This document shows, piece after piece, positions 24,832 through 26,392 of a stretch of 64,000 nucleotides of DNA. The position numbers were made by a program, and so were the translations under genes. Position 1 is the first letter of the stretch; each line of letters opens with the position of its first letter. Below the pieces are notes generated by a model. The model searched no databases and was not told the origin of the DNA. It was given only the letters and a program-made list of their open reading frames with translations. The DNA is from Oscillospiraceae bacterium (GTDB lineage: Bacteria; Bacillota; Clostridia; Oscillospirales; Ruminococcaceae). The DNA lies in contig JAGASN010000027.1 of NCBI GenBank assembly GCA_017847875.1, forward strand, positions 1 to 64,000, in the 5' to 3' direction.

Positions 24832-24872
24832 GAAAAGCAATATGCTGAAAGCATACTGACGGAAAAATTTTT

Positions 24873-25151
24873 TTATTTCTTTTCGGAATTTATCAAAGCT
24901 TCGGCAAAAAGCCTTGTTCCAAGAGAAAACCCATCAAAAAAGGCTTGTTCTTCCGCAAGGCAAAGGTTTTCGTTCATATTTTCAGCATATTGTTCGAAAA
25001 ATTTAAGCTGCTTTTCGTCAAGCAGGCTTTCAAGATTATGATAACTTTTTGAAACAAGCCTTTCAACTTCGTTAATTTCGCTGTTGCCGGTTCCGGAAAT
25101 TTTTGAAGGGTGAAGATTTCCATACCAAAGTTCAGTAATCAGATTCATCAT
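24873..25151 (-). CDS. DUF6809-like small protein
   Basis: 92 residues, begun by two ATG codons after GAGG. The N-terminal MNLITELWYGNLHPS, the central helix DEKQLKFFEQYAENM and the C-terminal FFDGFSLGTRLFAEAL resemble DUF6809 proteins common in Clostridia, whose role is not known to me. No signal or membrane segment. It is divergent from a ribbon-helix-helix gene at 25311, and the shared intergenic region has three tandem GGTACC operators, one of them 35 bases before this start, so the pair is probably co-regulated. The family match is from memory and was not searched. Confidence 0.75.
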   Translation of the reverse strand: MMNLITELWYGNLHPSKISGTGNSEINEVERLVSKSYHNLESLLDEKQLKFFEQYAENMNENLCLAEEQAFFDGFSLGTRLFAEALINSEKK

Positions 25152-25185
25152 TTTATTACCTCGCAGTCATCAGTAATGAAATTAT

Positions 25186-25202
25186 TGTACCATAGTGGTA
25201 CC
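25186..25202. promoter_or_regulatory. Tandem GGTACC operator 1
   Basis: TGTACC then GGTACC with starts 11 bases apart, near the DUF6809 start. The spacer is ATAGT. One base (T for G) differs from operators 2 and 3 in the first half. Confidence 0.65.
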
Positions 25203-25247
25203 AAAACATCAAGTTAATCAGAAGAAGTTTGTAACAGCGAACAAAAA

Positions 25248-25264
25248 GGTACCATTATGGTACC
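25248..25264. promoter_or_regulatory. Tandem GGTACC operator 2
   Basis: GGTACC at 25248-25253 and 25259-25264, spacer ATTAT, 11-base period. The site is a near-perfect palindrome and lies midway between the divergent genes. Confidence 0.7.
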
Positions 25265-25287
25265 TTTAATTTTGTGCACAACTGTTA

Positions 25288-25310
25288 TATAATGGTACCG
25301 AGGTGGTATC
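25288..25310 (+). promoter_or_regulatory. -10 box and tandem GGTACC operator 3 of the ribbon-helix-helix gene
   Basis: TATAAT at 25288-25293 is immediately followed by GGTACC (25294-25299) and GGTATC (25305-25310), again 11 bases apart; the GAGGTGG ribosome site lies inside. A protein bound here would block both transcription start and early elongation. Confidence 0.65.
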
Positions 25311-25460
25311 ATGACTGAAAAAATTCAGGTAAAACTAAGGCTTCCGGAAGAGGTTGCAAATGAACTTAAAGCCGAAGCAGAAAAACAAAAAAGAAGCGTT
25401 AACAATCTTCTTGAAGTTATTATTGATGAATATCTTAAAAAACAAAAAGAAACTTTATAA
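25311..25460 (+). CDS. Ribbon-helix-helix (Arc/CopG-type) DNA-binding protein, 49 residues
   Basis: Too short to be noticed by length alone, but it has a GAGGTGG site and a promoter. A beta-strand (KIQVKLRLPEEV, about 4-15) is followed by helix A (ANELKAEAEKQKR) and, after the Ser-Val-Asn turn, helix B (NLLEVIIDEYLKKQK): the ribbon-helix-helix plan. Such proteins bind tandem short sites as dimers, and three GGTACC pairs lie upstream. It may be an antitoxin-like autorepressor, but no toxin gene lies beside it on the same strand; the divergent gene encodes a DUF6809-like protein. Confidence 0.8.
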   Translation: MTEKIQVKLRLPEEVANELKAEAEKQKRSVNNLLEVIIDEYLKKQKETL

Positions 25461-25468
25461 TCAAAATA

Positions 25469-25506
25469 AAAAACAGAGGCGTTTTGAAAAACGCCTCTGT
25501 TTTTTT
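25469..25506 (+). terminator. Bidirectional terminator after the ribbon-helix-helix gene
   Basis: AAAAACAGAGGCGTTTT pairs with AAAACGCCTCTGTTTTT around GA; it also serves the convergent EamA gene ending at 25505. Confidence 0.85.
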
Positions 25507-26392
25507 ATTTCTTTTCTTTTTGGTAAGATACCCCGAAAACCGAAAGGGTTATTATCCCTATTCCGAGGAGCTGAACGGCGGAAAAAGAATCGCCCATAAT
25601 AAAAATTCCCGCAAGAACGGAAATTACCGTTGTGAAATTCGAAAAGATAAGCGCTCTTCCGGCGGGGATATGGTTAAGGGCGGAATTTATCAGAAGGAAG
25701 GCGCAAACGGAAGAAACCACCGCAAGATAAAGAACGGAAACCCAAAATAACGGTTCAAAAAAAGGCTTGAGCATCAGGGATAAATCGCTTCCGTGCTCAA
25801 GAATCGCCATGGGAATAAAAACCGCCGAACCGAGAAGAAACATAATGTAGGTGCGTTCAAAAGCGGAAAAATGCTCCGCTGTTTTTCTGCTTAAAATTGT
25901 AAAAAGCGCCGCGGAAACAACCGCACCGAAAAGGAGAAGAAAACCTTTTGCGGAAACATTTCCGAACCCGCCGGAGGTTGTAAGATAAACCCCGAAAACG
26001 GAAAAAACGGTGCATGCCCCCTGGAGAAGGTTGCATTTTTCCTTAAGGAACAAAATTCCGAAGATAAGCCCGACCACCGGGACCATTCCAATCATAACGC
26101 CTGAAAAAGCGGCGGAAGTTGAATTTATTCCATAGGTTTCAAAGATAAAATAGCAAACCGGCTGGATAAATCCAAGGAGCAAAAGGCTTCCAAGCGGTTT
26201 TCCTTTGAGAGAGATTTTTGCTTTTCCAAAAAGAAGAACAACGTTCAGCGCGAGAAAAGCCAGAAGAAAACGCACCCCGAGAAGAAAAAACGGACTTGCA
26301 AAATCAAGGGCGGTTTTTGAAAAAAGAAAACTGAAACCGAAAATGCTGTAACCCAAAAGGGCACCGAGGGTTGCTTTTGAATTTTTTGTCAA
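25505..26392 (-). CDS. EamA/DMT-superfamily transporter
   Basis: 295 residues from a TTG start (MTKNSKATLGALLGYSIFGF) preceded by GAGGCG. Ten hydrophobic helices in two EamA domains (about 8-138 and 150-290); the second contains LINSALNHIPAGRALIFSNFTTVISVLAGIFIMGDSFS, typical of the family. The substrate is unknown. It differs clearly from the other EamA protein at 22884, so they are not recent duplicates. Confidence 0.88.
   Translation of the reverse strand: MTKNSKATLGALLGYSIFGFSFLFSKTALDFASPFFLLGVRFLLAFLALNVVLLFGKAKISLKGKPLGSLLLLGFIQPVCYFIFETYGINSTSAAFSGVMIGMVPVVGLIFGILFLKEKCNLLQGACTVFSVFGVYLTTSGGFGNVSAKGFLLLFGAVVSAALFTILSRKTAEHFSAFERTYIMFLLGSAVFIPMAILEHGSDLSLMLKPFFEPLFWVSVLYLAVVSSVCAFLLINSALNHIPAGRALIFSNFTTVISVLAGIFIMGDSFSAVQLLGIGIITLSVFGVSYQKEKK

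Follow-up and report, generated by a model that had tools for sequence, protein, structure and literature searches.

A divergent DUF6809/ribbon-helix-helix gene pair with three GGTACC-pair sites, a probable repressor switch in an Oscillospiraceae bacterium

The window, i.e., the complete 64,000-nucleotide stretch of DNA that was analyzed, contains a gene for a DUF6809 protein and a divergently transcribed gene for a ribbon-helix-helix (RHH) protein, which are separated by an intergenic region of 159 bp (25152-25310; Table 1). Both gene identities had been recognized in the sequence-only reading, and both proteins exceed the respective Pfam cut-offs. The DUF6809 protein matches PF20648 over the whole length of the profile (67.7 bits versus a cut-off of 27; positions 1-85 of 85) and no other Pfam family above its cut-off, toxin families included, and a PADLOC search also gave no match. 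With respect to its fold, a helical hairpin is predicted by two AlphaFold models (pLDDT of 77 for the window protein and 84 for the other). A Foldseek search of the model against the PDB and BFVD returned nothing below an E value of 1.8, VIA-align retrieved one helical row with an uninformative Z of 5.5, and the best E value of a profile search against PDB sequences was 0.31, which is no confident fold match.

The RHH protein exceeds the cut-off of the RHH_5 model (35.4 bits versus 26), likewise those of the Arc and RHH_1 models, and is also matched by a CopG-like model. It aligns with structures of P22 Arc in the PDB (E value of 0.04). The base-contacting residues of Arc are Gln9, Asn11, and Arg13, and the corresponding positions are occupied by Gln6, Lys8, and Arg10; the RSVN turn of Arc is present as well. 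Since the RHH models span residues up to 44-47 of 49, the protein ends where its DNA-binding domain ends and is thus without a toxin-neutralizing tail. With an RHH domain, a short N-terminal strand, and little else, it fits the Arc/CopG-type class. A viral scan with this protein gave no matches.

Table 1. Features of the DUF6809/RHH locus (positions in the window; G009 is the second species of the genus that carries the pair)
Feature	Position	Strand	Details
Terminator-like hairpin	24838-24858	-	3' of the DUF6809 gene
DUF6809 gene (PF20648)	24873-25151	-	92 aa; Pfam match, AlphaFold model, purifying selection versus G009 ortholog
Predicted DUF6809 promoter, -35 TTGATG, 17 bp, -10 TACAAT	25184-25212	-	Consensus scan
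Putative operator 1, TGTACC-N5-GGTACC, TGTACCATAGTGGTACC	25186-25202		1 mismatch; G009: GGTACC-N5-GGTACC
Putative operator 2, GGTACC-N5-GGTACC, GGTACCATTATGGTACC	25248-25264		0 mismatches; G009: GGTACC-N5-GGTCCC
Inferred RHH promoter, weak -35 TTTAAT, 17 bp, -10 TATAAT	25265-25293	+	Read from sequence
Putative operator 3, GGTACC-N5-GGTATC, GGTACCGAGGTGGTATC	25294-25310		1 mismatch; identical in G009
RHH gene, Arc/CopG-type putative repressor	25311-25460	+	49 aa; Pfam, P22 Arc alignment, G009 ortholog
Bidirectional terminator	25468-25505		Strong; common to RHH gene and EamA transporter gene

The three sites between the genes lie where the sequence-only reading had placed them (starting at 25186, 25248, and 25294, with one, zero, and one mismatches), and their number was not matched in 5,000 dinucleotide-preserving shuffles of the 159-bp region, 4,999 of which contained no site and one of which contained a single site. 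The hexamers of each site are 11 bp apart, i.e., one helical turn, and since GGTACC reads the same on both strands, a site can be regarded as a tandem repeat (period of 11 bp) and equally as a dyad of 17 bp. Operator 1 fills the 17-bp spacer of the predicted DUF6809 promoter and reaches the first bases of the -10 element; this promoter scores 9/12 as a match to the consensus only and has a TG before the -10. Operator 2 is located immediately 5' of the weak -35 that was inferred for the RHH gene; operator 3 starts right after the TATAAT and ends at the ATG, thus including the ribosome-binding site GAGGTGG. The RHH promoter falls below the threshold of the promoter scan, and its TATAAT and spacing are kept in G009. 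Half-sites about one turn apart over the gene's own promoter, as in these three 11-bp-spaced sites, are typical of Arc/CopG-type operators.

Conservation of the pair and its operators in relatives, on which the sequence-only reading had made its proposal depend, was found in one further species of the genus: the pair is present in 2 of 15 congeners, namely the window species and G009. The RHH ortholog of the latter (94% identical over 47 aa; 92% in another comparison of the same two proteins) is again divergent to a DUF6809 gene, and all three sites are present with their distances almost unchanged. Between the two species, 34 of the 36 hexamer bases are identical versus 75/123 elsewhere in the region (Fisher p=6.7e-5), a footprint of limited power, with only two species known to carry the pair. 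The DUF6809 orthologs share 55% amino acid identity (dN 0.36, dS 1.5), and the dN/dS of about 0.23 shows that the reading frame is under purifying selection, although it is far more diverged than the RHH and HAD genes.

In both species, the pair adjoins the same HAD-phosphatase gene; the neighbor on the other side is an EamA transporter gene in the window and a nucleoside-phosphorylase-like gene, named from its translated start only, in G009. Two further congeners (G001 and G002) have the EamA gene directly beside the HAD gene and lack the pair, and this empty site indicates an insertion or a loss of roughly 0.7 kb. In synonymous divergence between the window species and G009, the RHH gene (0.64) and the HAD gene (0.56) are similar, which is consistent with vertical descent since the split of the two species and loss elsewhere. 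A perfect 17-nt direct repeat (TTTTTTTATTTCTTTTC, 24868-24884 and 25500-25516) flanks the pair; it is of low complexity, falls on the final codons of both DUF6809 and EamA, and could be due to chance or be a trace of insertion. A search of plasmid DNA gave no match. The earlier proposal of a mobile accessory pair is accordingly plausible with regard to the sporadic occurrence in 2 of 15 congeners, the empty site, and the presence of the family on mobile elements (see below), but neither a recombinase nor terminal inverted repeats nor a clear target duplication accompany the window copy.

The rest of the 1.88-Mb genome contains four further sites with at most one mismatch, one of them in an IF3-like frame, and all within open reading frames. 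A wider GGTACC regulon was considered and rejected, since these other sites are intracoding and several of them also occur in congeners without the RHH gene. The common core of the sites, GTAC-N7-GTAC, is found six times in the genome, i.e., in operators 1 and 2, at three other places (one in the IF3-like frame), and once on contig C43 (4371-4385), where it ends 29 bp short of the start (4415) of an RHH paralog and has a second, imperfect copy nearby. This paralog (L103/L318, G000) is 47% identical to the window protein, and no further related RHH gene was found in the genome. It is divergent to a gene for a 61-aa probable membrane protein, with GTACAACCGTTGTAC and a near copy between the two genes. 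Beside the paralog lie genes for a Rep_OBD plasmid replication protein and for a protein resembling tyrosine recombinases, which suggests a mobile-element origin of the RHH family. The C43 region itself looks like an integrated plasmid. Another RHH gene, in locus L095 (about 1025-1150), has repeated TGTACCCA-type sites upstream, which also contain GTAC.

Overall, the sites, their spacing, their overlap with the promoters, their conservation, and a divergent pairing that extends through the DUF6809 family are read directly from the sequences; the binding of the RHH protein to the GGTACC pairs, the direction of its effect, its trigger, and the role of DUF6809 are what we infer. The RHH protein is most probably an Arc/CopG-like autorepressor that also silences the divergent DUF6809 gene through the three GGTACC-pair sites. 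The conserved footprint, the GTAC spacing before the paralog, and the Arc-like contact residues make it the likely reader of the pairs, so that the self-contained regulatory module envisaged in the sequence-only reading is retained. The 49-residue protein would form dimers, two of which would bind side by side to each GGTACC pair, 11 bp apart, like Arc on its half-sites. Occupation of operator 3 would block the RHH gene's own promoter and the region of its ribosome-binding site and thus result in negative autoregulation, occupation of operator 1 would obstruct the -35 and -10 elements from which DUF6809 is presumably transcribed, and operator 2, midway between them, would probably contribute affinity or cooperativity. 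In this way the RHH protein would keep itself and DUF6809, the presumed regulated effector, at a low level, and repression would be released once the repressor is diluted or absent, e.g., upon entry into a new cell. A divergent RHH/DUF6809 arrangement with three such sites has apparently not been described so far.

The wider family was surveyed in 98 DUF6809 loci that are mutually <70% identical and were gathered for this analysis rather than sampled at random; a regulator gene divergent within 450 bp of DUF6809 was counted as a divergent partner. XRE-type genes were divergent in 19 of these loci, convergent in three, and in no case on the DUF6809 strand, be it upstream or downstream. A profile seeded from a non-partner XRE protein again identified 19/98 versus 8/380 among other genes in these loci (odds ratio 11, p=1e-8). 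The divergent XRE and DUF6809 genes are about 100-350 bp apart, sometimes with duplicated dyads in between, and a duplicated-operator signal (z>2.5) was present in 6 of 19 regions between divergent DUF6809 pairs, the window included, versus 2 of 52 controls, a modest difference (rank test, p=0.03). Divergent RHH genes were confined to two of the 98 loci, i.e., G009, which stands for the window pair, and the distant L297, whose intergenic region contains two TGATATCA palindromes. Close relatives of the RHH gene were not found beside DUF6809 elsewhere in 198 genomes. In locus L036, an RHH gene is located about 0.9 kb from a DUF6809 gene whose divergent neighbor is of the XRE type. The idea that an RHH gene is the conserved divergent partner of DUF6809 therefore had to be abandoned: it occurs as such only in the window species, G009, and one distant locus, the XRE type being the usual divergent partner and RHH one of two recruited repressor types. 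Dedicated repressors in divergent position, usually of the XRE and occasionally of the RHH type, would have been recruited to DUF6809 repeatedly. Divergent regulators (21 loci) and TnpV neighbors (12 loci) never coincide, and 65 of the 98 distinct genes have neither alongside.

DUF6809 genes are present in 36 of 61 relatives and in 50 of the 246 genomes that were sampled from the class Clostridia, with 19 copies, several of them with divergent XRE genes, in a single genome of the family (G035). A first scan of genome contigs with the window protein gave no matches, and an alignment of diverse DUF6809 sequences contained no stretch conserved enough for scanning. A close subfamily (79-100% identical to the query) was found in records named Oscillospiraceae, Lachnospiraceae, Holdemania, and others; in most of its 80 loci, DUF6809 lies directly downstream of a TnpV gene on the same strand, and an XRE gene and type I restriction genes sometimes adjoin. 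TnpV has been postulated to act in the excision of Tn4451 (PMC3158075). The TnpV-DUF6809 pair of these loci (L134-L213, with the match mostly at about 5001) looks like a mobile module that spread recently across Firmicutes families. In 17-18 of the congener and relative loci (e.g., L029), a gene for a 58-aa protein of no known family comes after DUF6809 and before TnpV.

Further members of the family were found in gut phages and on plasmids. In one gut phage (L243:4992-5933), DUF6809 is followed by a Phd/YefM-ParE pair, both between tail genes; on a Psychrobacter plasmid (L242:7016-8521), DUF6809, a helix-turn-helix gene, and erm(53) are located between copies of ISVsa3, and the family has hence reached the Gammaproteobacteria. 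The family is thus associated with mobile elements, often has a dedicated repressor gene divergent to it, and most probably serves the elements that usually carry it.

An alternative already raised in the sequence-only reading is a type II toxin-antitoxin-like pair, with DUF6809 as toxin and the RHH protein as antitoxin and autorepressor. RHH domains are common among the DNA-binding domains of antitoxins, the window protein resembles models of BrnA and RelB-like antitoxins weakly, with scores below threshold, and the phage DUF6809 gene adjoins the aforementioned Phd/YefM-ParE pair. However, the genes are divergent with separate promoters instead of forming an operon, and the RHH protein is without the C-terminal tail, whereas antitoxins generally have a separate toxin-binding region (PMC4803016). 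Moreover, DUF6809 matches no toxin family in Pfam or PADLOC, most DUF6809 genes are without an RHH partner, and 65 of the 98 distinct genes adjoin neither a divergent regulator nor TnpV. The divergent layout, the missing antitoxin tail, and the unrelated folds of the partners led us to reject this explanation as very improbable. The same two unrelated partner folds, XRE and RHH, argue against a single feedback circuit in which DUF6809, as an anti-repressor or co-regulator, would bind the divergently encoded repressor and modulate its contact with DNA, because, together with the fact that most DUF6809 genes have no such neighbor, they make a conserved contact surface unlikely. DUF6809 also diverges fast between the two RHH pairs, whereas the RHH protein is 92% identical. 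The recurrent position of DUF6809 divergent to single-domain repressors and the predicted small helical hairpin, which would suit protein contacts, speak for such a role, which we nevertheless regard as unlikely.

The GGTACC dyads might finally act as RNA hairpins or attenuators or belong to an unrelated host regulator, with the RHH protein reading something else. Operator 2, which could have another function, is a near-perfect 23-nt palindrome with a T-rich stretch behind it and gives a good RNA fold in the window (z of -4.1), but G009 retains the hexamers and has lost the hairpin (z of -1.0), so that an RNA structure at this site was discarded. In addition, the one-mismatch full sites elsewhere in the genome are intracoding, and the RHH paralog is preceded by another copy of the GTAC-N7-GTAC core. 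We regard both variants of this explanation as very improbable.

The proposed autorepressor resembles P22 Arc and the plasmid protein CopG of the MetJ/Arc RHH superfamily in its minimal RHH architecture of about 45-53 residues, the pairs of half-sites about one turn apart in an operator over its own promoter, the Q-x-(N/K)-x-R contact strand, and the RSVN turn. It differs from them by three operators for two divergent promoters, palindromic GGTACC half-sites, and DUF6809 as the controlled partner. An RHH protein, operator hexamer repeats, and, as proposed for the window, cooperative dimer binding are shared with the autoregulation of RelB/RelE (PMC2812701), but toxin-binding tail, operon, and toxin homolog are missing from the window pair, and spacing and sequence of the hexamers differ. 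The divergent XRE/Cro-type loci (19/98) likewise have a dedicated small repressor divergent from DUF6809, which differs in fold and operator sequence. The TnpV-DUF6809 operons on clostridial mobile elements share the DUF6809 gene, but there TnpV precedes it on the same strand, a divergent repressor is absent, and type I restriction genes sometimes adjoin.

DUF6809 is common in gut Clostridia, although no paper on the family was found in the literature searched. The repeated occurrence of divergent repressors points to an expression that is normally kept in check. Tentatively, DUF6809 might represent a large, undescribed Clostridia family of mobile-element effectors that came repeatedly under the control of their own divergent XRE or RHH repressor, are silent once the element is established and released upon transfer or repressor loss, and possibly have a role in element establishment or host-element conflict. 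The three-operator switch with its 49-residue repressor would provide a simple handle on the timing of expression in this family.
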